From a virus: a stretch of 27,458 bases of DNA. This document shows, piece after piece, positions 1-26,093 of this stretch. The notes under the pieces were generated by a model. The model did not search any database. It was not told where the DNA came from and worked only from the letters and a program-made list of their open reading frames with translations. Each line of letters opens with the position of its first letter. Position 1 is the stretch's first letter. The stretch lies in the IMG/VR virus record IMGVR_UViG_3300007631_000006, positions 1-27,458 of that record; one strand, written 5' to 3'. The position numbers and the translations under genes are program-made.

Positions 1-180
1 CTGAGGTACGTTCTTAAGACCCAGGGATCGACGATACATCTTATATGTATCGAATCGTGATCGCTTGTCAAGCTCTCGATATTGTTTTGTCGATCGACCC
101 GTCGGATTCATATTCACACCGGGTCCACTTGATGTATTCAGTGGAGCCTCTTCGTCGACGTAGTCCTTAAACGATTTCAT
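1..180 (-). CDS. Partial phage protein with capsid-targeting-like N-terminus
   Basis: An open frame of 60 codons begins with ATG at 180 and runs off the left edge without a stop, so only the N-terminus is seen. It begins MKSFKDYVDEEAPL, which fits the N-terminal signature shared by seven other genes in this window and resembles the T4 internal-protein capsid targeting sequence, with a possible cut after V-D-E. The rest of the visible part is basic and polar, with a QYRELDKRSRFDTYKMYRRS stretch. It starts 2 bases after the stop of the 200-residue gene, so it belongs to the same transcript. Function is unknown. Confidence 0.75.
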   Translation of the reverse strand, partial: MKSFKDYVDEEAPLNTSSGPGVNMNPTGRSTKQYRELDKRSRFDTYKMYRRSLGLKNVPQ

Positions 181-182
181 CG

Positions 183-785
183 TCATCTCTGAATGTCTCT
201 TGCTGTAATGTATACGTTGTGATGAGTATCCGCATGACGAACACGATAGATGTTGGTGTTTCTTACAGACCCAATCGGCGTCGTGCTTTCGTCGACAATA
301 ACTCTTTGTTGAGGATGTCCGATTACTTCACCGGTTGTAGGAGAGAGTGCCTCGGTATTCAACTCGTACGTACCCGGAGCAATCTGATTGTTTTTCTGAA
401 TAAACCAGGGTTGTTCATTGACGGACTCGTTCAGCTCAATTTCATCGAGGTCGATTCCCATCTTGTCGAACACTGCACCAAGTTGTTCATCGCTCATTCC
501 AGTATGTTCTTTAATTAAGTACAGAGCAGCAGCGTATGACGCCGCCGCGGTTCGACCGCCCGGAAGCTTTTGTAGAATACGTTTGATACCAAACACAAGT
601 CGATGAAAGATCGTATACGCGCTCTTTTCCTCTGAAGTACGAAGCGTTCGAGACTTACGAAGAACCTTTCCGTTCTCGTCGATGATACCAAACTCATACG
701 CGTCCATGTCCTTCCAATCGGTAGAAAGAATCTTAACGAATCGATATGCGTAGTATGTATCGGCTGCCTGTGATACGATTCCCAT
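183..785 (-). CDS. Conserved marine T4-like phage protein, function unknown
   Basis: This encodes 200 residues with no signal peptide or membrane segment. The N-terminal half (MGIVSQAADTYYAYRFVKIL, then the regions FGIIDENGK, FHRLVFGIKRIL and AASYAAALYLIKEHTGMS) matches my memory of a conserved hypothetical protein of marine T4-like phages, usually beside structural genes. The C-terminal half contains GTYELNTEALSPTTGEVI and may be a small beta domain. It lies tightly between two other minus-strand genes: the upstream gene ends at 786, and the next begins at 180. A virion role is inferred from position only. Confidence 0.7.
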   Translation of the reverse strand: MGIVSQAADTYYAYRFVKILSTDWKDMDAYEFGIIDENGKVLRKSRTLRTSEEKSAYTIFHRLVFGIKRILQKLPGGRTAAASYAAALYLIKEHTGMSDEQLGAVFDKMGIDLDEIELNESVNEQPWFIQKNNQIAPGTYELNTEALSPTTGEVIGHPQQRVIVDESTTPIGSVRNTNIYRVRHADTHHNVYITARDIQR

Positions 786-2492: not shown

Positions 2493-2861
2493 CTATGAAT
2501 CCTCTTCTTTCTCTTTCTGATCCACGATCTTTTGCGCCCACTCAACTCCGGCGTCTCCACCCCAGCCTAGCCATGCGACATGCCCGTTGTCTTTCCACGG
2601 TGTGTCTTTATACTCTGATGATATCTTTGCATTCTTCTTATGACGAGCAAAAGCGGCCATTCTTTTTACCGTGTCGTACGACAGATCTTCTCGATCAGCC
2701 AACTGATTCGCACGAATCCAACCCGTACGAGTCATAGCGGTAACCTCATCGTCACCATGCTCTTCCTTCCAGTCCAGAGCTTTCTGCGCGTTCTTAGCAG
2801 CACCCGCCGGTGGTTTGTAAGTTTCCTCTTCCTCAACGATATACTGAGCGAACGTCTTCAT
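2493..2861 (-). CDS. Capsid-targeted-like protein with KPP...AWLGWGGDAG module
   Basis: A 122-residue protein. It starts MKTFAQYIVEEEE, matching the shared N-terminal signature with I-V-E as a possible protease site. The body (about 16-115) has the order KPPAGAAKNAQKALDW, GWIRANQLADREDLSYDTVK, RMAAFARHKKN, then HVAWLGWGGDAGVEWAQKIV. I recognise this as a module found in various phage structural and prohead-associated proteins, where it reads roughly KPP-...-A.DL..G..LS..TV+RM..F..RH...-GR+AW..WGGDAG..WA. Its biochemical role is unknown to me. The C-terminus is highly charged. Confidence 0.75.
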   Translation of the reverse strand: MKTFAQYIVEEEETYKPPAGAAKNAQKALDWKEEHGDDEVTAMTRTGWIRANQLADREDLSYDTVKRMAAFARHKKNAKISSEYKDTPWKDNGHVAWLGWGGDAGVEWAQKIVDQKEKEEDS

Positions 2862-2877
2862 AGTTATGCGATTCCTA

Positions 2878-3114
2878 TTATCCGAACTCGTGGCCAGCGA
2901 CTCGCTTCATCTGTTTCTTGAACTCAGCGAAGTCGGGTTTGTTCTTATAGAGTTTGATTGTAACCTCGTCGCGATCCTTGCCCTTGATACGCCAGTTGTA
3001 TCCGTCCTCTTTGTGCCTATCAAGAGTCGTTTTTACAACGCGACGCTCGAATCCGTCCTCCCAGGATTCGTAACCCTCTGATACTTCTTCACGAAGTTGA
3101 GAAAAACTCTTCAT
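2878..3114 (-). CDS. Small capsid-targeted-like protein, 78 aa
   Basis: It begins MKSFSQLREEVSEGYESW. This is a variant of the shared N-terminal signature, with V-S-E followed by G as the likely processing point. The remaining roughly 65 residues are basic and look like a compact alpha/beta module (GYNWRIKGKDRDEVTIKLY, then FAEFKKQMKRVAGHEFG). I recall similar short modules in marine T4-like phage proteins but no function. The ATG at 3114 lies 6 bases after the previous stop. Confidence 0.7.
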   Translation of the reverse strand: MKSFSQLREEVSEGYESWEDGFERRVVKTTLDRHKEDGYNWRIKGKDRDEVTIKLYKNKPDFAEFKKQMKRVAGHEFG

Positions 3115-3120
3115 TATTGG

Positions 3121-3540
3121 TTAATCCGTGTCCGCTCGTTCCTGCCACTCGTACGAAGTGTCATCATCTTTAATCGGACCGCCCTTGGCCCATGTACGGC
3201 AGGTACGTGCGGAGTGACACTTAAAGTGGTGCATCCAGCAGTAACCGAGTCTACCGTCATCGTCTGACGTCGGACCCGGCATACAGTCCTCCATACGTGG
3301 CGAGATATCAAAGGCGACGCAGTTGCCGCAGAGTGATTTCTTAGCCGCCTCGACCGTGGTGTCCCAGTATTCGGCTATATCCTTCCAGTAGTCACCGGGC
3401 TCGTCGACGTTGAGTGGGCCGTATTGAATATAGTCGGCCTTAATCGCCGCATCACGATTCTTCGTATTGAGCTTCACATCCTGAGTTGCGTCAGGGCACT
3501 CCATGTCCTGCTCTTTGATAAACTTAAAAAATGATTTCAT
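3121..3540 (-). CDS. HiPIP-like cysteine-rich protein with capsid-targeting-like N-terminus
   Basis: The start is placed at 3540 (MKSFFKFIKEQDMECP) rather than 14 codons upstream, because only this start gives the shared signature and it leaves just 2 bases after the previous stop. In the 139-residue product, cysteines lie at 71, 74, 86, 101, 108 and 114, in the order CGNCVAFD, EDCMPG, LGYCWMHHFKC, RTCRTWAKGGPI. The spacing C-x2-C-x11-C-x14-C with a GYC turn resembles high-potential iron-sulfur proteins (C-x2-C, later C, then GWC). The two extra cysteines could equally make a zinc site. Metal content is an inference. Confidence 0.65.
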   Translation of the reverse strand: MKSFFKFIKEQDMECPDATQDVKLNTKNRDAAIKADYIQYGPLNVDEPGDYWKDIAEYWDTTVEAAKKSLCGNCVAFDISPRMEDCMPGPTSDDDGRLGYCWMHHFKCHSARTCRTWAKGGPIKDDDTSYEWQERADTD

Positions 3541-3542
3541 TA

Positions 3543-4826
3543 CTAATCCCCAATGCCGGCTTCTTCGCGAGCACTCAGCCATGCAGCAACCGCCATTTCT
3601 CTCCGCTCCTCATTATCCTTACCTTCAAACTGAGGCGCATCAGACTTACGGAAATCCTCGATCCATTTCGACACATCGTCAGATGGTTTGAGAACCTCGG
3701 TAATGGTTGACTCGTTCTTCTCTTTGTCGCTCTTCCAGTTCTTGTCAATATAATCGTAGAATTCTTTTTCCTTCTCGCCCTCGAGTTCACCCTGTGATTT
3801 AACACCGAACTTCTTGAGTGCCTTATTAAAGAACTTGCGATAGGCATCCTTATCGCCAGACTTGGCTTCAGTCAGCGTACTCTCTCCATACATGCTCATG
3901 CCCATGGAGTAACGATCCGACTGACGAGCCTTCATCTTACGAGTCTTGCCCTTCATGTAAGAGTACAGACCTTCCATCTCGCCTTCCATCTTGGCAAGTT
4001 TGTTTTGATACCACTCGGGCATTGGGCAGCCACTATTAAGACAACGAGTGATGTCGTCAGCAGCATATTTGATAAATTGGAGCTGAGTCTGTGCCATCTC
4101 AGATGCGCCGATCGGGCCATAGTCAGGATAGTCGTAGTAACCCTCGGACAGAGTCTCCTCGTTCATGACCTGCTTGACTTCAATGTCGTCCTCGTTGTCA
4201 TCCATCCACTTGTCTGCGGCCTTCATATTACGAAACTTCTTAGTGAAGGACTTCGAGTTCATGCCCTTGACACCCTTGACCACGATCTTTTTGTTTGGAT
4301 CGATATCGTCCTCGTAGGAGGTCTGCTCGTTCATCGGCACAGTATCACCGCTATCAACGTAAAATCTGTCTTTTTTATTTGTTGAAAGATTTTTAATATT
4401 GACCCAATATCCAGGTCCAGACTGTTTTGGTCTTGATATAACTTCATGTGGTGTATCATCGCGCCCATAAAGAATTACATCGCCAGGTTTTAGATCATCT
4501 GGACCTTTTTCGGCCCTGTAATTTTCATTCTTCATTCGTTTACGAGCTTCTTCCATCGGCACGCAGTTTGGAACTTCCTTACCGTTCTTCTTTTTGGTGC
4601 CGACTTGAACGTATCCGTCCCAGCACGGGCCGTCATCCTCTTTCTTCATCGCCTTTGAGATTGCCTTACGGCGCTTCTTGAGATACTCGTCGGACGAATC
4701 AACATCACCGTCGTTATCGATATCGGCGTCTGCCTTACCGACTGGATCGAGCTTCTCCTCGCGTTTGTTATTCTTGCCGCACTTAGCCTCCTCGAGCTCG
4801 CGGCGAAATTTGAAAAAGTCAGCCAT
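3543..4826 (-). CDS. Modular virion polyprotein-like protein with several protease-like sites
   Basis: A 427-residue protein. It starts MADFFKFRRELEEAKC, a divergent member of the shared signature with L-E-E|A at 11-14. The modules are: an EF-hand/dockerin-like acidic loop (DADIDNDGDVDSSDEYLK, 33-50); CWDGYVQVGTKKK...PNCVP (68-90); an SH3-like segment (LKPGDVILYGRDDTPHEVI, 112-130); FRNMKAADKWMDDNEDD (198-214); a helical module (IGASEMAQTQLQFIKYAADD, from 239); and a basic module (YRKFFNKALKKFGVKS, 329-344). Cleavage-like sites L-S-E|G (226-229) and L-T-E|A (318-321) fall between modules. I have seen these modules in marine T4-like structural proteins. A scaffold or internal-core role is inferred. 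Confidence 0.7.
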   Translation of the reverse strand: MADFFKFRRELEEAKCGKNNKREEKLDPVGKADADIDNDGDVDSSDEYLKKRRKAISKAMKKEDDGPCWDGYVQVGTKKKNGKEVPNCVPMEEARKRMKNENYRAEKGPDDLKPGDVILYGRDDTPHEVISRPKQSGPGYWVNIKNLSTNKKDRFYVDSGDTVPMNEQTSYEDDIDPNKKIVVKGVKGMNSKSFTKKFRNMKAADKWMDDNEDDIEVKQVMNEETLSEGYYDYPDYGPIGASEMAQTQLQFIKYAADDITRCLNSGCPMPEWYQNKLAKMEGEMEGLYSYMKGKTRKMKARQSDRYSMGMSMYGESTLTEAKSGDKDAYRKFFNKALKKFGVKSQGELEGEKEKEFYDYIDKNWKSDKEKNESTITEVLKPSDDVSKWIEDFRKSDAPQFEGKDNEERREMAVAAWLSAREEAGIGD

Positions 4827-4840
4827 CGTAATTACCTTTA

Positions 4841-6307
4841 CTATGAGTTCTTGATTTTATCTTGTACGCTGTCGGGTAGCTCATCAAACAGATCTTTGTC
4901 AGCTTTCTGAGCCGTGCCTTTTCCATACGTGAGAAAACTGTTTACTCGAGCCATTGCCCACTGAGGCGCAGTTGTACCAGGACGGTGACCCTGCTTATAC
5001 GCAGCAAGGCCGCGATCGTAGACCTTCTTAAGTACACTCATCGGTGCGCCGGTCTCGTCGGACTTTTTCTTTAAGCCTTTATTCTCTGTTATAAACTCTG
5101 AGAATGTTTTCACGTCTTCTTCTCCATATATTTCTTTATATTTCTTTGTATGCTTAGACGGTTTTGTCTCTGCGTCCTCGTCACCTGGAGCCGGACCCTT
5201 TCCGCCGCCGCTCTTAAAGTATTTAGCTCGAGCCTTCTTTTCTTTATCGCTCAAACCCTTATAGTACTGCTTGGGTTGATCACCCTCGACGTCAGGAACC
5301 GCGTCCTCATCCTGCTGCTCTCGATCGTCCTCGGCCTCTTCTGCTTCGAGACGTTCTTCCTGTTCTGCTTCAATCTCATCCCTACGACGAGCATCCTCGA
5401 GCTTATCTTCGTACTCATCCTCGAGATCGTCCTTCGCGTCCTCGTATTCCTGCTGAACACGATCGACGTTCTCACCCTCGTCAAGTCTCTCGACATCGGA
5501 TAACCACTTGCGATACTTCTTACCCTCTGCCGTCTCGACGATAACGTAGTTGGCTCCGAGGAACGCGATCGCTCCGACCTCTTCTGTTTTTGTGATAACG
5601 ACCGAGTCACCCTCGTTGAATAGATCACCTGAGGCATACGCCTCACGTTCCTCGGAAACTGGTTGCAGCTGAATGTGTCTGCGAAAATCGTGCGACTCAT
5701 TCAGGCCCATGCCCTTACGTACGTCGTTAAAGAGATCCTTGGCATCACTGAATCCTGATGGCATACCCTTCATAAAGGTCTGCAGATCGTTGGCCGCGGC
5801 TGCCTGACGTAGTTTGGATGCGGACATACCGGATACACCCTCGGCATCAGGGTCGCGCTCACCGGCAGAGATAACATTTACGCCACCCTGGAAATTATAG
5901 AATCCGTGTCGGGCCTTCTTACCGTTATACATATCGGTCAACTTCTCGAACTGACCTACTCGATCTGAGCCGACGACCAAGTTGACCTGAGTGTATCCTT
6001 CTTCGTAGAGTTTGACCAGAATGTCAAAGATGTTCTTGATGTCCCTGTTCATGATAACTGACCGAGCATGCTTAGGGAACATTTTACGAATGTACTTGAC
6101 CTTTGTGCGATAGTCAAGCGGGTTCTTTTTAGAATCCTGGGACTGGGATACATAGATTCGATAGATTCCGCCAGACGCAACTCGTGCAACGGAATCAAGT
6201 AACTTACCGTGTCCAACCGTAGGTGGATTAATGCGTCCGAAGGTAAACGTGATTTCCTTCTTTGCCTCGGTAATGTACTGTGTAAACGACTTAAAGCTTT
6301 TCTGCAT
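4841..6307 (-). CDS. Nucleotidyltransferase (HxGH superfamily) with SH3-like, coiled-coil and C-terminal modules
   Basis: A 488-residue protein. After MQKSFKSFTQYITEAKKE (signature, I-T-E|A), residues 20-200 are a cytidylyl/adenylyltransferase-like domain. It has FTFGRINPPTVGHGKLL (the HxGH motif with the first His replaced by Thr), NLVVGSDR and GVSGMSASKLRQAA (equivalent of the IS-S-T-x-[IL]-R motif). Next come an SH3/KOW-like segment (FNEGDSVVITKTEEVGAI, 230-247), an L-D-E|G site near 275-278, an acidic coiled coil (281-335), a lysine-rich KGLSDKEKKARAKYFKSG module, and finally LKKVYDRGLAAYKQGHRPGT (about 426-445). A second targeting-like segment, VKTFSEFITEN, occurs at 399-409. The substrate is unknown; NMN or CTP-linked chemistry is possible. 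Confidence 0.75.
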   Translation of the reverse strand: MQKSFKSFTQYITEAKKEITFTFGRINPPTVGHGKLLDSVARVASGGIYRIYVSQSQDSKKNPLDYRTKVKYIRKMFPKHARSVIMNRDIKNIFDILVKLYEEGYTQVNLVVGSDRVGQFEKLTDMYNGKKARHGFYNFQGGVNVISAGERDPDAEGVSGMSASKLRQAAAANDLQTFMKGMPSGFSDAKDLFNDVRKGMGLNESHDFRRHIQLQPVSEEREAYASGDLFNEGDSVVITKTEEVGAIAFLGANYVIVETAEGKKYRKWLSDVERLDEGENVDRVQQEYEDAKDDLEDEYEDKLEDARRRDEIEAEQEERLEAEEAEDDREQQDEDAVPDVEGDQPKQYYKGLSDKEKKARAKYFKSGGGKGPAPGDEDAETKPSKHTKKYKEIYGEEDVKTFSEFITENKGLKKKSDETGAPMSVLKKVYDRGLAAYKQGHRPGTTAPQWAMARVNSFLTYGKGTAQKADKDLFDELPDSVQDKIKNS

Positions 6308-6332
6308 TTTTGTCCACTGTTCCCATGAGGTT

Positions 6333-6348
6333 TAGATAGTACTATCTA
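6333..6348. repeat. Perfect 16-bp palindrome in intergenic gap
   Basis: TAGATAGTACTATCTA equals its own reverse complement. It lies in the 69-base gap between the nucleotidyltransferase gene (start 6307) and the preceding gene (stop 6377). No T-run follows on either strand, so a rho-independent terminator is unlikely. It could be a dyad binding site or an RNA processing hairpin. The rest of the gap shows nothing else clear. Confidence 0.5.
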
Positions 6349-6376
6349 TCCAGCCTATAATCTATGACTTCAACAC

Positions 6377-7621
6377 CTACGCGTCGGACCATCCTTTCAA
6401 TACGTCCGGTGAGAAGTTATTATATGAGAACTCCATGCGATCGACTAGCTTCACAGCGTTATTGCTGAGGCGGTCGATGGCTACGTAGCCCTCATCACCC
6501 GTTGTTCTGTATCCGTTACGAGTACGAACAAAGGTGCTCATATCATTCAATTTGTCTAGTTTATTTATAATAATAAGTTTCGCATCAATGAGTGCCTGCT
6601 GCAGATCAAAGACTAATTTAAGGTTTTTTCGGTTCTTTTCCGAAAAGAATTCAAGAATCTCGTCACGCTTAGCGAACTGAGACGCTCGACCTTTTTCGGT
6701 CTTTCTCTTTGAGGCTTCCTTCTCGTACTTACTCTCGATCCAACGAATTAGATTGTTGACGTGGGCGGCGGTGTCCTTAATTCTCTCACCACGACGAACA
6801 TACGTGTTATTGAACTGCTCGATCATTTGAGCGAACTCTTTATTGTTCTCAATCTCTCGTAGTGTCGAACCGGAGATTCTGGAGAAGATCTTACCAGCCT
6901 TTGACAGTGCAGCGGTTACTTCTTCAGTGTCACTCTTTGTCAGAGTCGCCTTACCCGACAGATCCTTGAGACCCGCGTCCTGTAACCAGACGTTACTAGA
7001 ATTCTTAAAGTCGCGTTCGGCGTTGACATTGAACGATGAGCTCATGGACTGAAAAGAATCACCTGTGTATCGTGTATGAAACACGATCCCGATCTTAGCA
7101 GCCTTGATCTCTTTACCGGCATCTGAGTCAACGGGGACGGCGTACACAATGGTGTTGGGCTGAAAGGTATAGTACTTTGTTTCATCGATCGTATCGGTCT
7201 GAACGTCGCCTTCTCCGAACATAAAGTCGCCCTGAAAGACACCCTCGGTTACCACGCCATTGAGATACTTCAGCGCAGCCTTGAGCTTAACCGCAAGATC
7301 TCCGGATGTATCCTCATCGACCTCTGCAGGTGTCGTATAGTACTTTGGTGTCGTATTGAATACCGACTTTTTGCCAACAAAGAATTCGCCGGCCTTCTCG
7401 TTCTCCGGTGGTACGATACCACAGAATACGGCCGGAGCACCGTCCCACTTAACTGTTACATCCGTCTGAGTCGAGGTATTACCAGCTAACATGTCTCGCA
7501 GCTCGCGAAGCGCGTTGATCGACTCGCGTGTACCGCTGACGCCACCATAGATCACGGCGTCCTCGATGTGAGTCATATGAGTGTTCTTTGCCTCGGCGAG
7601 GTATGATGTAAATGAAAGCAT
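6377..7621 (-). CDS. Capsid-targeted-like protein with KWDG (ligase/capping-type) motif
   Basis: A 414-residue protein. It begins MLSFTSYLAEAKN, the shared signature with L-A-E|A. The body contains VTVKWDGAPAVFCGI (56-69), where K58-W-D60-G61 resembles motif I (KxDG) of the covalent nucleotidyltransferases (DNA/RNA ligases and capping enzymes). EGVFQGDFMFGEGDV (126-140) could be motif III-like, and AKIGIVFHTRY (175-185) motif IV-like. The C-terminal 200 residues are helical and basic (EKEASKRKTEKGRASQFAK). I know it as a conserved hypothetical of marine T4-like phages; the ligase-fold link is inferred from motif order. Its ATG overlaps the previous stop by one base (TAATG). Confidence 0.7.
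   Translation of the reverse strand: MLSFTSYLAEAKNTHMTHIEDAVIYGGVSGTRESINALRELRDMLAGNTSTQTDVTVKWDGAPAVFCGIVPPENEKAGEFFVGKKSVFNTTPKYYTTPAEVDEDTSGDLAVKLKAALKYLNGVVTEGVFQGDFMFGEGDVQTDTIDETKYYTFQPNTIVYAVPVDSDAGKEIKAAKIGIVFHTRYTGDSFQSMSSSFNVNAERDFKNSSNVWLQDAGLKDLSGKATLTKSDTEEVTAALSKAGKIFSRISGSTLREIENNKEFAQMIEQFNNTYVRRGERIKDTAAHVNNLIRWIESKYEKEASKRKTEKGRASQFAKRDEILEFFSEKNRKNLKLVFDLQQALIDAKLIIINKLDKLNDMSTFVRTRNGYRTTGDEGYVAIDRLSNNAVKLVDRMEFSYNNFSPDVLKGWSDA
6562..6569 (-). promoter_or_regulatory. Possible internal late promoter TATAAATA
   Basis: An exact TATAAATA on the minus strand lies inside the KWDG-protein gene, about 255 bases upstream of the nucleotidyltransferase start. It may be a coincidence of the local AT-rich codons for LIIINKL, or an extra late start for the two large downstream genes. 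Confidence 0.25.
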
Positions 7622-8403
7622 TATTCGAACTTCAGTGTTGGTTTTATAGTTGCCTGAGTGACGCGATCAAGACCAATGTTCTTTCTTTGTATCTTGCCGG
7701 AGAATATTACTTCACCATAGTCCTTCTTCCCCTTATCATTGTTTATAAGAATCACCTCATCACCCTCGAAGTAATTGAACGCTCGATCACCATACTTTTT
7801 TTCAATCTTTTCAAATTCTCTCGGAGCCCTCTTCTTCATTGTCTCAATCTGAGTCTTGGGGATCTCACCCGGTGCGCCCGAGAGATCGAGCTTTTCTTTT
7901 AGGTCAGCTAGCTCACCCATGATATCATCAAGTCTCACGGTCCCACCGAGTTTGAAATCATGAAAATCGCCGGCCTTTACGCGTGGTTTAACCGCTTTGA
8001 TCTCGTACTTCTTACTACCGACAACAAGATCTACACCAGCTGATGCACCACCGCCTAGTTGGCTGTTATCGAGAAGATAGTACAGTGTCGCCTCACCCGG
8101 ACCAACACCCTTTAACGGGTAGTCGTGTAGTTTAGAAAAAAGCTTCGTGTTGATTGACTTAAGCTCTCGAATCAGTGCATTAAGTTTGTCTTTGTCGACA
8201 CTAGTAAGAGTTTTTGATGTATCAAATCCTGGAAAGAAGTTCTTTGTCAGTAGATACTGAATCTCTGCCTTGTTCTCGGTCGACTCGAAATCAGATGTTT
8301 GTAGATTGAACGAAGTGACTTTCTCTGCGCGTCGAATAAAATCCATATTAAGATCATCGACAGAGATGGTTGCTTCTTTAATGTACGACTTAAACGATTT
8401 CAT
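7621..8403 (-). CDS. PD-(D/E)XK nuclease-like protein with capsid-targeting-like N-terminus
   Basis: The start is set at 8403 (MKSFKSYIKEATIS) instead of six codons upstream. It gives the full signature with I-K-E|A, and AAGAG lies 6 bases before the ATG. In the 260-residue product, GPGEATLYYLLD (102-112) supplies a helix glutamate. It is followed by SAGVDLVVGSKKYEIKAVK (121-139), in which D125 and E134-x-K136 fit the D...ExK core of the PD-(D/E)XK restriction-type nuclease fold. A lysine-rich helix and a C-terminal beta segment (FEGDEVILINNDKGKKDYGE) follow. It is the first gene after a terminator and an exact late promoter, so it opens the late block. Nuclease activity is inferred from motifs. 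Confidence 0.7.
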   Translation of the reverse strand: MKSFKSYIKEATISVDDLNMDFIRRAEKVTSFNLQTSDFESTENKAEIQYLLTKNFFPGFDTSKTLTSVDKDKLNALIRELKSINTKLFSKLHDYPLKGVGPGEATLYYLLDNSQLGGGASAGVDLVVGSKKYEIKAVKPRVKAGDFHDFKLGGTVRLDDIMGELADLKEKLDLSGAPGEIPKTQIETMKKRAPREFEKIEKKYGDRAFNYFEGDEVILINNDKGKKDYGEVIFSGKIQRKNIGLDRVTQATIKPTLKFE

Positions 8404-8435
8404 TCCTGACTCTTGTAACATAAGTTATATACTTC

Positions 8436-8443
8436 TATTTATA
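8436..8443 (-). promoter_or_regulatory. T4-type late promoter TATAAATA
   Basis: An exact TATAAATA on the minus strand ends 33 bases before the ATG at 8403 of the PD-(D/E)XK-like gene. It overlaps the AT tract of the upstream terminator. The match to the T4 late consensus and its placement at a transcription-unit boundary support it. Confidence 0.75.
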
Positions 8444-8512: not shown

Positions 8513-8935
8513 TTATAAGGAAATCAGTTGTTTATGATATCGTTCTTCGAGATCAACGGCTTCCTGTTCCCAGGGACGATTCGCATAGTCTACGGAGGTC
8601 ATGTCCTCTCCCTTCCATACCATTCGAGGACCGAGGCCGCGAATGTGCTCCTGCACCAGGTCACCACGAACGTACTGCCAGATATGAACGAGCTCGTGAA
8701 TGATCGTTCTCTCGAGTTCTTCTCCACGTAGATCGGATCGAAGTTCGATCGTGTAGTCGTCGTGATCCTCCTGAGTACAGTAACCGTCAACGGTCATATC
8801 GTGGTCAATCTCAAATCCGACCGATATCATATCGTGGTCGATGTCTTCGAACACTTTATCGGATACTTGTCTTACCACTCTTTCAATCGTATCGACGACG
8901 CGGTCGTTCTTCACATTTCCAAGTCCGATCAACAT
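8513..8935 (-). CDS. Zincin-like metalloprotease-fold protein (HELVH)
   Basis: The frame is open back to 9115, but the start at 8935 (MLIGLGNVKNDRVVDT) is preferred because it lies 16 bases after the preceding stop. The longer version would overlap that gene in a low-quality arginine-rich stretch. The 140-residue product has RTIIHELVHIWQYVRGDL, with H80-E81-x2-H84 as a zincin HExxH, and a downstream NRPWEQEAVDLE with E124 as a possible third ligand, as in SprT-like or small phage peptidases. The substrate is unknown. It is followed by a terminator. Confidence 0.7.
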   Translation of the reverse strand: MLIGLGNVKNDRVVDTIERVVRQVSDKVFEDIDHDMISVGFEIDHDMTVDGYCTQEDHDDYTIELRSDLRGEELERTIIHELVHIWQYVRGDLVQEHIRGLGPRMVWKGEDMTSVDYANRPWEQEAVDLEERYHKQLISL

Positions 8936-8951
8936 ATTGAGAAGACTCTTA

Positions 8952-9179
8952 CTACTCTTCTTCCTCTGTATCGTCTTGATGAAAATTACGCCAACTCTCC
9001 TGATTCTGGTTACAGAGTCCGACAATCTCACCGTCCTCATCGATACGAATGTATCCGACCTCAGACAGTCGAGACATGACTGCCACCGCACCCTCTGTGA
9101 AAGACGTCGATCCATAGGATAGAATCGATGCGATCCAAAGGACTCCTAGCAGCAGAATCATCCACCATTCGAGAAACAT
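8952..9179 (-). CDS. Small single-pass membrane protein, 75 aa
   Basis: The N-terminus MFLEWWMILLLGVLWIASIL (1-20) is one hydrophobic segment. It is followed by GSTSFTEGAVAVMSRLSEVG and an acidic tail ending DDTEEEE. It could be a membrane-anchored early protein or a small lipoprotein-like factor, but no lipobox cysteine follows the segment. A GATAAATA late-promoter-like octamer lies 33 bases upstream of the ATG. Unrecognised beyond its topology. Confidence 0.65.
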   Translation of the reverse strand: MFLEWWMILLLGVLWIASILSYGSTSFTEGAVAVMSRLSEVGYIRIDEDGEIVGLCNQNQESWRNFHQDDTEEEE

Positions 9180-9686: not shown

Positions 9687-10376
9687 TTACGATTCACTCA
9701 CGTACTCATCGATCATCGGAAAGATCTTTGCGATCTCATAGGCGCATTCACGAGCGATCAACGCGTGCTCCTTCTGTGTGCCGTTACCCGAGCGCAACTG
9801 AATGTAGTGAATCCAGGACCGAAGAGTACCGTTCATATACAGACGTGACGTAGTCAGACCTTCTGGTAGAACGGCACGACACTGTTCCTTAGCGATACCC
9901 TGCTCGATTCCCCACTTATAGGCCTCGATCGCGGCGTCCTTGACTTTGTTCTGTTTCTGAACCCACATCTCTTCCATGGTTCGATTCACCGAAGAGTCGT
10001 CCAGTTCAATCGAGTTCTGACGATTCTTCGTATCCTGAAGACGCGCCTCGCGCATAACGAAGTCAAGTTCCTGTGTCGGATCGGCGTATCGCTGACTGAA
10101 CTCCTGAAAAGCAAACGAGCGATGCCGTACGATCTGATGAGCGATGTCGCGAGTCGTATCGATCTCAATCACGGCGTTCACGAGTTCAAACGGACTCCAG
10201 TGTCCGTGGCGCGCTAGGAATCGCACGAGCTTTTCGGCCGTCTCCTGATTCGTCTGATTCGACGGGTTCGATACTCGAGCGGAGTAGACGACCAGATCCT
10301 GCAGGTCTGGATTATCCCTCCACTCCTTCACGAAGTCGTCGGTAGGCTGAGTGTAACTAATAAGTTTTGCTGTCAT
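9687..10376 (-). CDS. thyX: Flavin-dependent thymidylate synthase ThyX
   Basis: ThyX converts dUMP to dTMP using FAD, NADPH and methylene-tetrahydrofolate. The 229-residue length is normal. The ThyX signature is seen as RHRSFAFQEFSQRY (84-97), a variant of RHRxxSxNExSxRY in which the first Ser is Ala and Asn is Gln, while S95 is kept. Downstream, CRAVLPEGLTTSRLYMNGTL and RSWIHYIQLRSGNGTQKEHA are the usual substrate-binding C-terminal region. It follows gp41 with a one-base overlap (TAATG-type). With the dCMP deaminase and dCMP hydroxymethylase-like enzyme upstream, it forms a phage pyrimidine pool pathway. Confidence 0.93.
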   Translation of the reverse strand: MTAKLISYTQPTDDFVKEWRDNPDLQDLVVYSARVSNPSNQTNQETAEKLVRFLARHGHWSPFELVNAVIEIDTTRDIAHQIVRHRSFAFQEFSQRYADPTQELDFVMREARLQDTKNRQNSIELDDSSVNRTMEEMWVQKQNKVKDAAIEAYKWGIEQGIAKEQCRAVLPEGLTTSRLYMNGTLRSWIHYIQLRSGNGTQKEHALIARECAYEIAKIFPMIDEYVSES

Positions 10377-11785
10377 TATACTTTTACTCCACTGAAATCT
10401 TTACGTTCACTTGCGATTCCTGCTCCGGCCATTGATGAATCAAACACCGGTCCGCTGTCCTGTACCAATGTCTGAGCATTATCCTCGACGTCGTAAAATC
10501 GCATCTTAGCTTTATCAACACCCAGAACGAATCGTTTGTTCTGAGTGGGATCCGAGTATCTATTCTTGAGCTGTTTGACCATTACCTGACCAAGATTCTG
10601 CAGGTCCTCGGTAGAGATCAAAGCAAACATCATGTCGGCGGTCGCAGGTACACCGAATGATTCGGACGTGTTGTTCAAATCAACCTCTGAGTTGGCAAAT
10701 CCCTCACGATTTGACTGCGTTGCTGTAACGATCGGAAGATTGAACTCGATGGACAGACCACGAATCTCCTCGGCGATCGACTTGATTAATGAGTACGTAT
10801 TGATCGATCCACCGAGACCACGCATACGAGCCGACGAACAGATGTTCAGATAGTCGATAAAGATAATGTCTGGAACAAAATCACGTTTAAGTTGCAGCTC
10901 CTCGAGCAGTGCACGAAAGTGACCGGCATGAGCAGCACCGGTCGGATACTCCTTAATGATCAGCTTACCGGTGTTACGTTTTGCGATCTTGTTAATCTTA
11001 GTCGAGTACTGATCGTAGGACATGTTCTCGAGTTGATCGATCGGCACGTTCATAAGGTTCGCATCGATACGTTCGGCGATACGTTCCTCAGCCATCTCAA
11101 GAGTAACGTACAGAACGTTCTTACCTTGTGTCAGTATGGATGCAGCGTGATGACACATGAACATAGACTTACCGACACCAGTCGACGCAAGGATCACATT
11201 CAGCGATTTACGTGGAAGACCACCCTTACTGATCTTGTTCATATAGTCAAGATCAAAAGGAAGTTTTTCTTCGTAACGATGATAAAACTCGTATCGTGCG
11301 TCTGCGTCATTGATGTAGTCATGACCGACCGAGGTATCAAACGAGACTGAGAGCGCATCCTTGAGAAGATCGGGAAGAGCGTTCTTTGTCAGTTCCTTGT
11401 GACGGCCATCGATGATATTGATCGATTCCATGACCGCAAGATAGATCGCACGGTCCTGACACCACTTTTCGGTCTGGTCCTCGAGCCACTGCTGATTAAC
11501 CTCCTTGTATTCAGAGATGTCAGTAAGAAGACTCGATGCTTCGGATGCGTCATCCTCTGGCAGATTTTCTGAATCGGCAATTTCAATACCCAGGGCTTCG
11601 GCCGTCGGAAGTTTGTTGTACTTCGCGACAAAGTGAACGACTGAGTCAAAGATTGCTCGATGCGGACCTTCGAAATACTCGCGTTTTAGAAACGGAACGA
11701 CACGTCGTGTATACTCTTCATTGTGAAGAAGATTCCGCAGGATTGTCGTCTGTATCGTCGTCTCTGCCAATTCGGTAATCTCCAT
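10376..11785 (-). CDS. 41: Replicative DNA helicase, T4 gp41-like (DnaB family)
   Basis: A hexameric helicase that unwinds DNA at the phage fork. The N-terminal part has EYTRRVVPFLKREYFEGPH, matching the gp41 N-domain. The RecA-like core has LASTGVGKSMFMCHH (Walker A), VLYVTLEMAEERIAERIDA, PDIIFIDYLNIC (Walker B) and PIVTATQSNREG, then SESFGVPATADMMFALI. The frame is open to 11848, but T4 gp41 homology begins near the ATG at 11785. A TTG at 11770 with GGAG 9 bases upstream is also possible. It overlaps the preceding gene by about 65 bases, which is unusual here. Confidence 0.92.
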   Translation of the reverse strand: MEITELAETTIQTTILRNLLHNEEYTRRVVPFLKREYFEGPHRAIFDSVVHFVAKYNKLPTAEALGIEIADSENLPEDDASEASSLLTDISEYKEVNQQWLEDQTEKWCQDRAIYLAVMESINIIDGRHKELTKNALPDLLKDALSVSFDTSVGHDYINDADARYEFYHRYEEKLPFDLDYMNKISKGGLPRKSLNVILASTGVGKSMFMCHHAASILTQGKNVLYVTLEMAEERIAERIDANLMNVPIDQLENMSYDQYSTKINKIAKRNTGKLIIKEYPTGAAHAGHFRALLEELQLKRDFVPDIIFIDYLNICSSARMRGLGGSINTYSLIKSIAEEIRGLSIEFNLPIVTATQSNREGFANSEVDLNNTSESFGVPATADMMFALISTEDLQNLGQVMVKQLKNRYSDPTQNKRFVLGVDKAKMRFYDVEDNAQTLVQDSGPVFDSSMAGAGIASERKDFSGVKV

Positions 11786-12086
11786 TCTCAAATGCGTTTT
11801 CAATAATATGCATGATAATGTTTCCGACGTACGTCTGAAACTCATCATTATTCTCGAGCTGTTCGGCCGTATACATTCTAGGATCGTATTTTGTTACGGT
11901 AAAGTCATACGATAGCTCAGCCATCTCATCTCCGTCGAGAACACGTGCGCTGAGACGTGTAACCTTGAACTTAATACCGTTCCACCTAGAACTCGTACGA
12001 TCGATACGAATCTCAGAGAGTGCCTGACTTGAATCGGCTACAAAATCTGGATCAAGTATTGTATAGTCAGCTTCAGTTACTGTCAC
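11718..12086 (-). CDS. Conserved hypothetical between uvsX and gene 41
   Basis: The GTG at 12086 is chosen: AAGAGGA lies 8 bases upstream, within the 3' end of uvsX, giving a short translationally coupled overlap (about 14 bases). The ATG at 12143 would add a stretch that is only a shadow of uvsX. The 122-residue product has a beta-rich middle (EIRIDRTSSRWNGIKFKVTR, then AELSYDFTVTKYDPRMYT) and a helix NDEFQTYVGNIIMHIIENAF, with an acidic tail. Position suggests a replication or recombination accessory role, but no function is known to me. Confidence 0.65.
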   Translation of the reverse strand: MTVTEADYTILDPDFVADSSQALSEIRIDRTSSRWNGIKFKVTRLSARVLDGDEMAELSYDFTVTKYDPRMYTAEQLENNDEFQTYVGNIIMHIIENAFENGDYRIGRDDDTDDNPAESSSQ

Positions 12087-13161
12087 TACCCGCGTCCTCT
12101 TCAAGCTGTGGTTGTAGGTCTCCTGGAAGGTCATCCGCCTCAATCATCGACTTATAACCAATCATATAGTGATTACGAATAAACTCTTGGAACTTGGGAT
12201 CTGCAAGAATTGGTTCCCAGAACTCTGCCTTCTGTGTATCCTTCTCGCGAACCTTGGGCTGAACCTCTTCTCCAGTCTCTGTATTAATACGGCAGTACCA
12301 TCCTTGATTTGGTTTGGTAACATGACCGGAGAGCAGAGCAATGTCGAGTAGACCAGAGAACGGTTGAATGCCACCTTCCCAGGATACAGAGATCGGAATA
12401 CGCGACTTCTCCTTGACGAAACGCGACTTCTCGACATTAATGATAAAGTGATAGCCCTTGATCTCGGTTCCTTTCTTGTCCTGCTGACGACCAATGATCC
12501 AGACGTTATCGGAACTATACATGATGCCGGTACCGCCAGATACGATAGCCTTGGGAAAGAGACCGATCTCCTGATAGGTATGATTGACCGCCAGCATCGG
12601 AATGTTCTTCATCGAGAGATACGGCGTGACCATACGAAAGAGACCTTTCAGAGCCTTGGCACGAGACATATCGGCGACAGATTTCTCATTGATTGCGTCC
12701 TCGAGCTCCTTCTTTGACGCAAGGTTACCGATTGAATCGATTACGACGATGACCTTGTCACCGCGTTCAATCGACTCAAGCTGGTTGACGATATCGAACT
12801 TGAGCTTTTCGACATCAGTGATCGGCGTATGTAACACGCGATTTGTATCGATATCAAACGACTCGAAGTATCCCTGAGGTGAACCGAATTCGGAGTCGTA
12901 AAACAGCATGACCGCGTCCTCGTGATGCTTCATATACGCCGAGGCCATGAGCAGAGCGAACGAGGTCTTAAAGTGTTTGGACGGACCGGCGAGTACGGTA
13001 AGTCCGGATGACAAGCCACCATCGAGTCGACCAGAGAGTGCGGCGTTGACCATCGGTACATCGGTCGGTACTTGGTCGTTTTCTGAAAAGAACTTAGACG
13101 ATGCGAGAACCGACGTCTCCTTGATTCGTGAGTTCTTCTTAAGTTTATCCATTGCTGACAT
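12073..13161 (-). CDS. uvsX: UvsX recombinase (RecA/Rad51 family)
   Basis: Strand-exchange protein for recombination-dependent replication and repair. The 362-residue sequence follows T4 UvsX closely: ASKFFSENDQVPTDVPMVNA, ALSGRLDGGLSSGLTVLAGP, Walker A GPSKHFKT (59-66), LFYDSEFGSPQGYF, VIVVIDSIGNLASKKELEDA, KNIPMLAVNHTYQEIG, and SGGTGIMYSSDNVWIIGR. The acidic C-terminus (EEDAGSDSN) is typical. AAAGGAG is 9 bases before the ATG, and a strong early promoter lies 35-63 bases upstream. Confidence 0.95.
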   Translation of the reverse strand: MSAMDKLKKNSRIKETSVLASSKFFSENDQVPTDVPMVNAALSGRLDGGLSSGLTVLAGPSKHFKTSFALLMASAYMKHHEDAVMLFYDSEFGSPQGYFESFDIDTNRVLHTPITDVEKLKFDIVNQLESIERGDKVIVVIDSIGNLASKKELEDAINEKSVADMSRAKALKGLFRMVTPYLSMKNIPMLAVNHTYQEIGLFPKAIVSGGTGIMYSSDNVWIIGRQQDKKGTEIKGYHFIINVEKSRFVKEKSRIPISVSWEGGIQPFSGLLDIALLSGHVTKPNQGWYCRINTETGEEVQPKVREKDTQKAEFWEPILADPKFQEFIRNHYMIGYKSMIEADDLPGDLQPQLEEDAGSDSN

Positions 13162-13195: not shown

Positions 13196-13224
13196 ATTAT
13201 AACTCAATTCACTATCGATGTAAA
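13196..13224 (-). promoter_or_regulatory. Early-type sigma70 promoter for uvsX
   Basis: GTTTACA with its TTTACA at 13224-13219, 17 bases, then TATAAT at 13201-13196 (minus strand). It overlaps the last codons of the methyltransferase-like gene and drives uvsX, whose ATG is 35 bases downstream of the -10 box. Confidence 0.82.
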
Positions 13225-14450
13225 CTAATAAATTCTTCAAGAGTCGACTCATCACGAGAAACAACATCATGACCCATCTTGACGTTGGACTGTTTCACGA
13301 AATCGCCCTGAACGGTATCTGTCTGACCGTTGAGATACTCCGTCACAAAGTCGGCCATGTCCTTTGCAGTGGTTACAGGTACATTCTGACACATATGATT
13401 TGCATTGGCCGGTGACTGAGGACTTGAGCCCGCCATATCAAAATCGTCCGGAATCTTCATGATTCGCAAACCCTCTCGTAGAGTCAGGAATCGATCGGCA
13501 AAGGGATTCACAAGGTAGTGTGGCATTGCACCGATGAAAGATGGAATCTGACCCTTTGGTACCGTAATACCGTGCGACCAGTAACCTTTGCCCTGATCAA
13601 GCTTCTCCTGCATAGCGCGAGCTCGATTCGCAAACTTTTCTGAAAAGGCCATGCTCTCCATCCAATCGGCTGTCTCGTTTAGATTCTGAACCAATCGATC
13701 CGACTCGACAATACAGTTGGTAGTCTTCTCAATCACATTGTAGTAGTCTTCGATTGTTTCACATTCATTCTTGTACATGCAGAATCGTAGCCACGGATTG
13801 TCAAGAGGATTGTCCTTATTGATCAGAACGTTCATTGGATCGTCCTCGGCGATATCGCGAGTCAGGATATCCTCCACCGGTTCCATCGGCCGACGAATAT
13901 ATCGAAAGATCGGTGTCTCTTCAAATCCTTTCGTAAAAAAGTAGAACGTCCGTGGTCTCTTCTGAGCGATACCATGCAAACGTGATTCGGTATAGTATAG
14001 ATTCAGAGAGTAACCATTACTTTTACCAATCTCGTGCAGTCTCTGAGCAACCTTTTCTCCTACTTTACTGAACAAACGAGGTGCATTCTCACCCCAGAAG
14101 ACCTCGGGCCGAATCTCAGACAGTACGTATTCTGCCGTCTTATACATCCATTCGTTGACCGATGAGTCCGCACCGGACGTACGTGATAGACTCGACAAAC
14201 CAGCGCAAGGACAAACGGTATTCACTACGTCGACAGTAGATCGTTTACTCGAGTCCTCGTCAAGCAATGCATACTCACCGTCCCAGTTCTTTTTCTCGCG
14301 AAGGTAGTTCACAAAGTGAGAGTCGTTGGCCTGAAAGTCTGAGTACGATAGAATCCATTCGGGTAACTGACCGTTCATAGACTCCATGATTCCTAGGTTT
14401 TCACCACCGATTAGCGGTACGATCGATGCGTACGTAATGTCTTTACTCAT
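13212..14450 (-). CDS. C5-cytosine DNA methyltransferase-like protein
   Basis: A 412-residue protein with Dcm-type motifs in canonical order: motif I-like PLIGGENLGIMES (12-24); motif IV VCPCAGLSS (79-87, P81-C82 with catalytic Cys); motif VI WGENAPRL (119-126, ENx); motif VIII AQKRPRTF (162-169); motif IX RFLTLREGLRIMKIPDDF (320-337); and motif X-like QNVPVTTAKDMADFV. Known C5 methyltransferases transfer a methyl group from SAM to cytosine C5. Motif I lacks the usual FxGxG. It overlaps the glycosyltransferase gene by 8 bases. With a dCMP hydroxymethylase-like enzyme present, its substrate or its one-carbon donor may be unusual; this is inference. Confidence 0.82.
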   Translation of the reverse strand: MSKDITYASIVPLIGGENLGIMESMNGQLPEWILSYSDFQANDSHFVNYLREKKNWDGEYALLDEDSSKRSTVDVVNTVCPCAGLSSLSRTSGADSSVNEWMYKTAEYVLSEIRPEVFWGENAPRLFSKVGEKVAQRLHEIGKSNGYSLNLYYTESRLHGIAQKRPRTFYFFTKGFEETPIFRYIRRPMEPVEDILTRDIAEDDPMNVLINKDNPLDNPWLRFCMYKNECETIEDYYNVIEKTTNCIVESDRLVQNLNETADWMESMAFSEKFANRARAMQEKLDQGKGYWSHGITVPKGQIPSFIGAMPHYLVNPFADRFLTLREGLRIMKIPDDFDMAGSSPQSPANANHMCQNVPVTTAKDMADFVTEYLNGQTDTVQGDFVKQSNVKMGHDVVSRDESTLEEFISLHR

Positions 14451-15714
14451 GATTCGTTAGCTCCTTGATTGTATTCATTGCAAGTTCATTAAGATACGAG
14501 CCGTCATAGTACTCGTCCTTTAGCATTCCGTCTATATTTCTGCGTAGTTCGGAGTAGGCATCTGGATTGTTCTCAAGGAACTCGATCTTGTCGAACAGAT
14601 CCTTGGAGTCGGTCACTCGCAGGAACTCAGGACACTTGAGATTGTTCTGCTCGTCGTACTCCGGATGTAGAAAAGGAATGATACCGTAGTGTGCCATCTC
14701 CCAGAACTTAGCGGTGACCCATCCCTTCTTAATCGGAATACAAAAGGTGTACTTAACTCGTGGCAGCATTTCCTGCAGATCGTTAAACTTCTTCGGACCC
14801 TTGAATCTTGCGTCTTCACCGACTGTACGAGGATCCCACTTACCATAGATCTCAACGTTCTCCACGTGGTCGAGAATGTACTTCTTAAGCTGTGGATATC
14901 GAGACGGCAGTCCCTCGTTACAGACAACCATAAAGTCGATGTCCTTCTCACCCTTTTCTGTCGATTCCTCTTCACCGCTAAAGAATGCGTCCAGTGTCGA
15001 CGGTGTCTCGACAATCTGCTCACCCTTGGTCTTACCGATAAGAAAGATCGTCTCGACTCGCGAATACTCGCACGGTACACTGGCGTGGTCGATTTCGGTC
15101 GATCCAAACTTCTTTACACATCGATGATTTACCGTCTCGTTGTACTGCGACAGAACCTTTGACGGTCGATGCATAAGATCTCGCATCTGCGCGGGCCAGT
15201 ATCGTGGATCGTTTACGATGATACCGTACGGAATGCGAGTCTCGTTCAGATAGTCGATAACGGGTCCGGCGTACTTAGCCTGCATGAACAGAGGACTTGC
15301 CAGAGTCGTAGGATCAGTCATCTTATACATCTTACCGCGAACATTGGAAGTCGCGGTCGGACCCATAAAGAACAGACCGCAGTCCATACCAGGATCAACA
15401 TTCTCTCTCCAGTACTGGAGGTACTTAATATTTACCGCATCCTGATCAACATCGTTCTTCTTTTTATATCTATCCTTAAACTCCGACAGCTCACTCCACG
15501 GATCGACGACGTTACCGTGTCGATTGATTCGAGCACGTTCCTTGGGATCAAGGCGCGAGAAGTCGGAGGCACCGATCAGATAGAACGTAACGTTCGGATT
15601 GCGATGAATCAGATTCTCGTAGAAGATCGGAGCCTCGTTGTCTCCGCCTGTCGCTCCCCACCTCTGAGGATTAAACAGAATCGACTTTCCGACCTTACCA
15701 ATCGCACACTTCAT
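14443..15714 (-). CDS. Glycosyltransferase-like protein (GT-B style)
   Basis: A 423-residue protein. The N-terminal half has alternating beta/alpha elements (NVTFYLIGASDFSRLDPKER, DCGLFFMGPTATSN, YGIIVNDPRYWPAQ). The second half has ETIFLIGKTKG, IDFMVVCNEGLPSRYPQLKK, VENVEIYGKWDPR and FCIPIKKGWVTAKFWEMAHY followed by GIIPF. The last motif is typical of the nucleotide-sugar site of GT-B glycosyltransferases (W-x-T-x-K-x-[WF]-E...G-x-[IV]-P). It could glycosylate modified cytosine in DNA, as T4 AGT/BGT and RB69-type enzymes do, or another target. It overlaps genes on both sides (methyltransferase-like and HAD), which supports a common pathway. Confidence 0.65.
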   Translation of the reverse strand: MKCAIGKVGKSILFNPQRWGATGGDNEAPIFYENLIHRNPNVTFYLIGASDFSRLDPKERARINRHGNVVDPWSELSEFKDRYKKKNDVDQDAVNIKYLQYWRENVDPGMDCGLFFMGPTATSNVRGKMYKMTDPTTLASPLFMQAKYAGPVIDYLNETRIPYGIIVNDPRYWPAQMRDLMHRPSKVLSQYNETVNHRCVKKFGSTEIDHASVPCEYSRVETIFLIGKTKGEQIVETPSTLDAFFSGEEESTEKGEKDIDFMVVCNEGLPSRYPQLKKYILDHVENVEIYGKWDPRTVGEDARFKGPKKFNDLQEMLPRVKYTFCIPIKKGWVTAKFWEMAHYGIIPFLHPEYDEQNNLKCPEFLRVTDSKDLFDKIEFLENNPDAYSELRRNIDGMLKDEYYDGSYLNELAMNTIKELTNHE

Positions 15715-16081
15715 GATCTACCCATTCCTTAAAGTCATTTAGATTCATGGCCTTATCGTCCACGTAGTATGTATTGGCGTACGGTTTTCCGAATACCAAT
15801 TCATCGTAGGGTACGTTCCATAGATTAAGCCATCTGACCGTTACGTCCCAGACATCCCTGTGAATCTTATCGATATCACCGTCATGAGTAAGCATACGTC
15901 GAGCTGAGTGAATGATAATGTAAAAATTGTCCACACTCAGCCTATGCATACGATCGATAATATCAATGTTTGGTTTTGCCTGACCGTACTTCGTTTCAGT
16001 GTCCTTGGCCTCATGATTTGGATAACAGATCGTATCGTCAAGATCGAACACGATCACTGGTCTGTTTTTATTACCAGGCAC
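15695..16081 (-). CDS. HAD-superfamily phosphatase-like protein
   Basis: The start is set at GTG 16081, 10 bases after AAGGAG and overlapping the end of the upstream fusion gene by 11 bases. The longer open frame to 16234 is only a shadow. The 128-residue product has IVFDLDDTICYP (D13 and D15 of HAD motif I), YIIIHSARRM (motif II region) and ANTYYVDDKAMNLNDF (motif IV acidic pair). It is small and has no large cap, like phosphatases in sugar-nucleotide and capsule pathways. It probably dephosphorylates a sugar or small phosphoester made with its neighbours; the substrate is unknown. Confidence 0.78.
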   Translation of the reverse strand: MPGNKNRPVIVFDLDDTICYPNHEAKDTETKYGQAKPNIDIIDRMHRLSVDNFYIIIHSARRMLTHDGDIDKIHRDVWDVTVRWLNLWNVPYDELVFGKPYANTYYVDDKAMNLNDFKEWVDHEVCDW

Positions 16082-21697: not shown

Positions 21698-21870
21698 TCA
21701 TCGATGTCAAACCACTCGAAGATCTCGTTCATTACACACGTTATGATCGTGTCCTTTACCTGCTCAGGATCCGGATCGTCGGTGTGCTTGTACGATCTGT
21801 GATATCCATACTTCACTCCGTTCTCTATCGCCTCGGAAAGGATTCGGTACGTCTTAGGTTTTAAACTCAT
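21670..21870 (-). CDS. Small conserved protein after gene 43
   Basis: A 66-residue protein. KPKTYRILSEAIENGVKYGY, HRSYKHTDDPDPEQVKD and VMNEIFEWFDIDDL form a helical, acidic protein. I recall close relatives directly downstream of DNA polymerase in marine T4-like phages, function unknown. Its ATG overlaps the polymerase stop by one base (TAATG), so translation is probably coupled to gp43. Confidence 0.75.
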   Translation of the reverse strand: MSLKPKTYRILSEAIENGVKYGYHRSYKHTDDPDPEQVKDTIITCVMNEIFEWFDIDDLQDDSDVL

Positions 21871-24401: not shown

Positions 24402-24430
24402 GAACACCTCCATTCAATTTGCTGGAAACC

Positions 24431-26007: not shown

Positions 26008-26015
26008 TATTTATA
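26008..26015 (-). promoter_or_regulatory. Late promoter TATAAATA toward regA
   Basis: An exact TATAAATA on the minus strand, 8 bases before the ATG of the gene 62 relic and upstream of regA. It is almost back to back with a plus-strand copy at 26029. Confidence 0.5.
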
Positions 26016-26036: not shown

Positions 26037-26093
26037 GATATGGATCGCGAGGTTGCAGCCTCCATCCATTCTAACACTATAGGGAGTGCCAGC

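Follow-up and report, generated by a model that had tools for sequence, protein, structure and literature searches.

A variable nuclease-like gene beside a conserved ligase-like/NMNAT-like pair in a T4-like virus suggests a set of virion-delivered enzymes

Why does a T4-like virus carry, next to its replication genes, a row of enzyme-like proteins that each begin like a protein targeted to the phage head? This question is raised by three consecutive open reading frames (ORFs) on the minus strand of the IMG/VR virus record IMGVR_UViG_3300007631_000006, whose whole stretch of 27,458 bases (hereafter the window) was analyzed with ORFs called by length. An earlier note on this DNA had read the three as a packaged kit of nuclease-like, ligase-like and nucleotidyltransferase proteins encoded by adjacent late genes, and their positions and strand were confirmed. 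The three genes and the promoter box ahead of them are as follows.

7621-8403, minus strand: P3, targeting start MKSFKSYIKEA followed by a PD-(D/E)XK-like nuclease (invariant motif residues)
6377-7621, minus strand: P2, targeting start MLSFTSYLAEA followed by DUF6267 (PF19782; Pfam E 1.6e-100; ligase-like motifs)
4841-6307, minus strand: P1, targeting start (SFKSFTQYITEA) followed by an HxGH-type nucleotidyltransferase and a C-terminal DUF5824 (Pfam PF01467, motifs)
8436-8443, minus strand: T4-type late promoter -10 box TATAAATA, exact, 33 bases ahead of the P3 start at 8403

What is new at this locus is a variable nuclease-like slot beside a conserved ligase-like/NMNAT-like pair. The related contigs that we compared were the best 80 of at least 597 and are skewed toward near relatives. 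An NMNAT-like gene was found no more than 3 kb after the DUF6267 gene in 89 of 93 contigs, the two are joined in S-PM2 and others, and a single PHROG spans both. When contigs were retrieved with P3 alone, the DUF6267 gene directly followed P3 in every case (14/14). The slot before DUF6267 in other contigs holds unrelated proteins, which stand one gene further up if a structural-looking gene intervenes, and the same scheme of a swapped slot was seen in S-RIM2, ACG-2014d and S-CAM9. The co-occurrence of the trio, which the earlier note had named as a check, was upheld for the ligase-like/NMNAT-like pair, its fusions and the placement of P3 beside DUF6267, but P3 as a conserved third member was rejected, since it is one of many families in the slot.

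The upstream proteins were grouped into families by similarity clustering, and the family labels were mapped on the DUF6267 tree. There were 20 labels among 77 loci and 35 label changes on the tree, and pairs of loci with 80-90% identical DUF6267 had the upstream family in common in just 45%. When the profiles of these upstream families were compared all against all, they did not detectably join into one family (best c28-c36 and c6-c11, weak), and several of the profile alignments map to the targeting start. Frequent replacement of this kind would also fit selfish genes, whereby mobile homing-like PD-(D/E)XK nucleases would spread between co-infecting phages and settle in the slot, the pair merely being adjacent. 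T4-like phages contain many homing endonucleases (segD, segE), which counts for this explanation, as does the homing-type GIY-YIG gene that the window contains. However, the slot and its orientation are constant, a packaging start is present on 29 of the 81 swapped proteins and one of their families has been reported in virions; we consider the selfish explanation very unlikely.

To what extent are the swapped proteins nucleases? The motif regular expressions used throughout were of our own design and were picked after some of the sequences had been viewed. A D...(S/E)xK motif was found in 37 of 68 upstream proteins of at least 200 amino acids, compared with 6 of 68 shuffled sequences. PADLOC returned type II restriction-enzyme matches in two upstream families (best 7e-14 and 1.6e-10); PDLC03459 was matched by 4 upstream proteins and PDLC03438 by 3, and P3 was matched by neither. 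The D...ExK motif that the earlier note had seen in P3 was borne out, as none of E104, D125, E134 and K136 (D125...E134-x-K136) varies among 18 relatives (27-91% identity), and the predicted order of helix-strand-strand-strand-helix-strand around these residues fits the PD-(D/E)XK core. Motifs, topology and context together suggest that P3 is a PD-(D/E)XK-like predicted nuclease. Its translation likely starts at 8403 rather than at 8421, because the relatives share an MKxFKxY..E N-terminus and the TATAAATA box lies too near the ATG at 8421.

Other kinds of protein occur in or around the slot. The idea that nucleases always fill the slot was rejected, as some of its genes encode ATP-grasp, amidotransferase or structural proteins. 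The slot non-nucleases include a RimK-like ATP-grasp protein and a glutamine-amidotransferase/BPL_N-like protein (contig L031, 2031-3443; contig L074, 3390-4136). A structural-looking protein of ~240 amino acids separates the nuclease-like gene from DUF6267 in contigs L014 (1695-2414) and L062 (5512-6243) and in 10 others (cluster 2). Directly upstream of P3 in the window is an SprT-like metallopeptidase gene (8513-8953, minus strand), relatives of which precede the slot elsewhere among the contigs (cluster 3).

The first kept member of the pair, P2, had been noted for a KWDG motif of the ligase/capping type. K58, D60 and G61 of this motif (K58-W-D-G) proved invariant across 67 relatives, as did Q130-G131-D132, E377-G378 and K391. 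The whole motif series in order (I KxDG, III, IV EG, V lysine) was found in 100 of 101 DUF6267 members and in 0 shuffles. Of 506 other ORFs, 3 had it, among them Va1_166, a neighbor of a P3 homologue. Around the motifs, the strands are predicted to follow each other as in ligases and capping enzymes, a helical insert is predicted at about residues 229-358, and short DUF6267 forms without much of this insert retain the motifs. In the order of motifs I, III, IV and V and in predicted strand order, DUF6267 resembles T4 RNA ligase 2 (gp24.1) and the covalent nucleotidyltransferases; motif IV is EGYV in both, while motif I is KxDG in DUF6267 and KIHG in T4 RNA ligase 2. DUF6267 differs from the latter by the lack of a detectable profile or fold match, the long helical insert, K-L-V for K-x-K and the NMNAT-like partner. 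In viral models, Foldseek retrieved only DUF6267 relatives, several of them fused to cytidyltransferase, and no paper on DUF6267 was found among the open-access literature. Judged by its motifs, P2 is probably a covalent nucleotidyltransferase. A stand-alone DUF6267 protein of 294 amino acids, S-SCSM1_257 (contig L138, 4407-5288), is missing a large part of the helical insert and has no targeting start, and its gene is distant from the NMNAT-like gene.

The second kept member, P1, contains the GRINPPTVGH motif that had been pointed out as HxGH-type, together with GSDR and MSASKLR. P1 matched the Pfam family CTP_transf_like (PF01467) at 21.8 bits, the cut-off being 21, and 29 of 31 P1 relatives matched this family too. 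G32, H33, S162, K165 and R167 are invariant in the P1 family, and the NMNAT-like relatives show little or no variation in (H/T)xGH, GSDR and SASKxR or in the F and E with which the targeting start is marked. Over 260 residues, P1 shares 43% identity with S-SCSM1_91, and its identity to S-SZBM1_140 is 37%; both of these proteins also have targeting starts (MKSFLQFLKEA and MRFRQFIIEA, respectively), and the cyanophage homologues are annotated as cytidylyltransferase or NMNAT. By these residues, P1 is a HIGH-superfamily nucleotidyltransferase, NMNAT-like.

Would these proteins reach the phage head? P3, P2 and P1 each open with a sequence shaped like a T4-type capsid-targeting sequence (compare the start of T4 IPI, MKTFKEFTSTTTPVSTITEA, MKTFKEF...ITEA), and disorder is predicted for this part of P3 and P2. 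As claimed in the earlier note, the targeting-like start is present on all three; a regular expression shaped on the T4 sequence found it in 7 consecutive window genes (2493-8421) and a partial edge gene, compared with 0 of 34 other ORFs. Across ~100 related contigs, it was found on 68 of 97 DUF6267 proteins (70%), 54 of 87 NMNAT-like proteins (62%) and 29 of 81 upstream genes (36%), whereas 22 of 463 other plus-strand ORFs (5%) and 0 of 58 minus-strand ORFs carried it. The late status of the genes was likewise confirmed by the exact TATAAATA box ahead of P3. Exact boxes of this sequence occur 5 times in the window compared with 0.67 expected, and 0 of 100 shuffles reach 5. The locus thus has the N-terminal targeting sequence and the late promoter that mark T4-type head-targeted internal proteins. 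The other genes with such starts are as follows.

3543-4826, minus strand: gene with a targeting-like start, short modules in common with S-SCSM1_92 and S-SZBM1_139
3121-3582, minus strand: small protein, targeting-like start MKSFFKFIKE (regular expression)
2878-3114, minus strand: small protein, targeting-like start MKSFSQLREE (regular expression)
2493-2861, minus strand: small protein, targeting-like start MKTFAQYIVE (regular expression; phrog_2859 match)
1-186, minus strand: partial gene at the window edge, targeting-like start MTMKSFKDYVDE (regular expression)

Homologues in other phages lend support to packaging. S-SCSM1_90 and the NMNAT-like S-SCSM1_91 are recorded as virion proteins (PMC9602691). 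S-SCSM1_90 belongs to the largest upstream family (cluster 0; 1.8e-70) and directly precedes S-SCSM1_91, with DUF6267 elsewhere in the S-SCSM1 genome. Like S-SCSM1_91, the NMNAT-like protein S-SZBM1_140 was reported from purified virions (PMC9146016), and NMNAT-like proteins of S-CREM2 (ORF154) and S-CBWM1 were reported in virions (PMC10665884). The product of the 3543-4826 gene is 59% identical to S-SCSM1_92 over 54 amino acids and 67% identical to S-SZBM1_139 over 21 amino acids, and both of these are reported virion proteins.

The three functions also appear together outside this group of phages. In Vibrio phage Va1 and its relatives, a P3 homologue comes directly after a ligase-like/NMNAT-like fusion protein.

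Contig L009, 8490-9941, and contig L140, 3501-5009: ligase-like/NMNAT-like fusion with full nucleotidyltransferase motifs (Vibrio and Campylobacter phages)

In the N-terminal part of the fusion, KxDG, ExFxEF, EG and K are invariant between the Vibrio and Campylobacter phages, and no sequence resemblance to DUF6267 was detectable in the Vibrio protein. When viral contigs were searched, no relative of the Vibrio fusion was confirmed. Cutter-like, ligase-like and NMNAT-like functions thus meet twice, and the Vibrio arrangement is an independent recurrence of the trio.

The C-terminal domain of the Vibrio fusion resembles phosphopantetheine adenylyltransferase (PPAT) as well as NMNAT, which counts against another explanation, a counter-defence centered on nicotinamide adenine dinucleotide (NAD). 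By this account the NMNAT-like protein would be the main payload and would restore or alter NAD early, in opposition to defences that deplete NAD, the ligase-like protein would serve the same chemistry and the nuclease would be an independent neighbor. It agrees with the NMNAT-like protein being the member of the set most often detected in virions, with the NMNAT-like and DUF6267 proteins being the conserved and at times fused members, and with the proposal that phage NAD-salvage enzymes counter NAD depletion (PMC9503650). Phage NAD salvage (NadV with NadM/NadR) likewise places a HIGH-superfamily adenylyltransferase in phages, but no phosphoribosyltransferase, Nudix or kinase partner was found at this locus, where the partner is ligase-like; nicotinamide phosphoribosyltransferase was not seen beside the NMNAT-like gene. 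The regular upstream placement of the nuclease-like gene is also left unexplained, and we hold the NAD-centered explanation to be unlikely.

The swapping of nucleases beside a kept pair suggests an injected enzyme kit instead. We propose, with a probability of about 0.5, that the locus encodes a late, virion-packed and delivered set, made of a variable restriction-enzyme-like nuclease and a conserved ligase-like/NMNAT-like pair. The proteins would be expressed late, packed into the phage head via the T4-type targeting sequence and brought into the cell with the genome at infection. The variable member, here P3, would most probably cut non-phage DNA at the onset of infection, with the host chromosome, plasmids, prophages and competing phage as candidate targets, and having to deal with differing target DNA would account for the frequent replacement of the nuclease. 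DUF6267 and the NMNAT-like adenylyltransferase would most probably act together to heal or adenylylate nucleic-acid ends, or to supply an adenylyl or NAD cofactor for this. A candidate for the self-protection of the phage is the C5 methylase gene at 13212-14450. No methylase adjoins P3, this one being ~5 kb off, so the locus does not have the form of a classical type II restriction-modification system. Action on host DNA or RNA, repair and counter-defence, all raised in the earlier note, are candidate roles of the set. The more specific version, a polymorphic virion-delivered restriction system in which nucleases exchanged as cassettes act against host, plasmid or competitor DNA and the pair protects or repairs phage nucleic acid, is a tentative suggestion that we regard as somewhat doubtful.

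Several results weigh against the proposal of a delivered set. The fold search that had been called for gave nothing significant against the PDB for P3 or P2, and it was the predicted secondary-structure order that fitted. For P3, the weak Foldseek matches included BbvCI and PvuII at E ~6, and comparison with Pfam and PADLOC gave no match, nuclease profiles included; sequence queries of the PDB with P1, P2 and P3 returned nothing, and neither did profile searches. A number of the slot genes plainly encode something other than a nuclease (RimK-like ATP-grasp, glutamine amidotransferase or structural proteins). The authors of the S-CREM2 study allowed for co-purification instead of true packaging (PMC10665884). 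As for DUF6267, no fold or profile search tied the family to any known ligase, and a profile comparison with T4 RNA ligase 2 gave no match, whether the helical insert was included or left out. In its motif V, the invariant K391 is followed by L-V, and the second lysine of the classical K-x-K of ligases is absent.

These last points, together with an invariant HxxHxED that precedes motif I and lies outside the ligase signature, would be expected if DUF6267 were not a nucleotidyltransferase, with KxDG...EGxV...VK being coincidental and the protein having another role beside the packaged nuclease, such as that of a structural or immunity partner. We think this improbable, as all the motifs occur in order with ligase-like spacing and the predicted strand order, the insert-poor short forms retain exactly these motifs, an equal motif series with an NMNAT-like domain stands beside the Vibrio P3 homologue, and the weak top PDB match of P2 is the mRNA guanylyltransferase PCE1 (Foldseek, E ~1).

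A further point against delivery is that DUF6267 is without a targeting start in several cyanophages, including S-RIM2, ACG-2014d and S-CAM9, and is not among the reported S-SZBM1 virion proteins (PMC9146016), so that its place of action there may be the producing cell. The packaged kit of the earlier note is backed by virion reports, from other phages, for the P1 relatives and one swapped nuclease family. If the whole set worked in the producer cell, resolving, trimming or sealing the phage's own DNA ends in late replication or packaging, its presence in virions would come about via DNA binding. The replication genes gp43, uvsX and gp41 adjoin the locus in most annotated relatives, which agrees with such a function. 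However, T4-type starts, in which F and E are conserved, bring proteins into the prohead core prior to DNA packaging, and swapping among 20 families is unexpected for a house-keeping DNA-processing enzyme; a producer-cell function is in our judgment quite unlikely.

Among known systems, the T-even internal proteins (IPI, IPII, IPIII, Alt) are likewise late and targeted to the head by a short F..(FY)(IL)xE start, and they form a highly diverse set with little conserved beyond the targeting sequence (PMC3012670). T4 IPI differs in being a small nuclease inhibitor, whereas here the variable proteins are nuclease-like and stand beside a conserved enzyme-like pair. The locus is best read as a variation on this theme of packaged internal proteins, in which a polymorphic virion-delivered nuclease would accompany the conserved ligase-like/NMNAT-like pair. 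Packaged restriction endonucleases, with a presumed role in degrading host DNA, are also found in chloroviruses (PMC7019647), and like the slot proteins these are viral restriction-enzyme-like nucleases, there located in the particle. Chloroviruses, however, are viruses of eukaryotic algae, their enzymes have adjacent methyltransferase partners and no ligase-like/NMNAT-like pair, and packaging and activity are known for the chlorovirus enzymes while both are predicted for P3. The cyanophage NMNAT-like/cytidylyltransferase virion proteins (S-CBWM1, S-SZBM1, S-SCSM1, S-CREM2) are kin of P1, and in those accounts the gene was treated as a lone metabolic gene, with the nuclease-like and DUF6267 neighbors labelled 'hypothetical'. 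The earlier note's statement that the trio is undescribed stands in that no description of it was found in the open-access literature, although virion-borne NMNAT-like proteins had already been reported in cyanophages. Within the same literature we found no description of packaged restriction enzymes in cyanophages.

If the proposal is true, delivered and exchangeable nucleases would be added to the known roles of T4-type internal proteins, and both Pfam DUF6267 and the puzzling virion NMNAT-like proteins would gain a concrete hypothesis of function. The injected content of close relatives would then be predicted to differ mainly in the cutter. Phages of this kind are abundant in the sea. The locus was found in Kyanoviridae and relatives infecting Synechococcus, Prochlorococcus, Pelagibacter and Methylophilales, and also in Stenotrophomonas phage DLP_6. 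In the window, the minus strand is occupied by a T4-like replication block, in which RegA (PF01818) and ThyX (PF02511) were also matched by Pfam.

21870-24413, minus strand: DNA polymerase (translation and matching gene order in annotated relatives)
13212-14450, minus strand: C5 cytosine DNA methylase (PF00145, 4.4e-16), among the replication genes
12073-13161, minus strand: UvsX-like recombinase (translation and matching gene order in annotated relatives)
10376-11848, minus strand: gp41-like helicase (translation and matching gene order in annotated relatives)

The P3-P2-P1 genes come after the helicase, and the locus has an equal position in S-PM2, Syn1, HTVC008M, Melnitz and S-SZBM1. Elsewhere in the window, a gene for a sugar-nucleotidyltransferase fused to an APH-like kinase (16071-17576, minus strand) adjoins that of a HAD protein (15695-16234, minus strand) with a weak PNKP-phosphatase match. 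The GIY-YIG/NUMOD3 homing-type gene (26040-26687, plus strand) is on the strand opposite to the main block, and TATAAATA boxes at 26008 (minus strand) and 26029 (plus strand) lie shortly ahead of its start.

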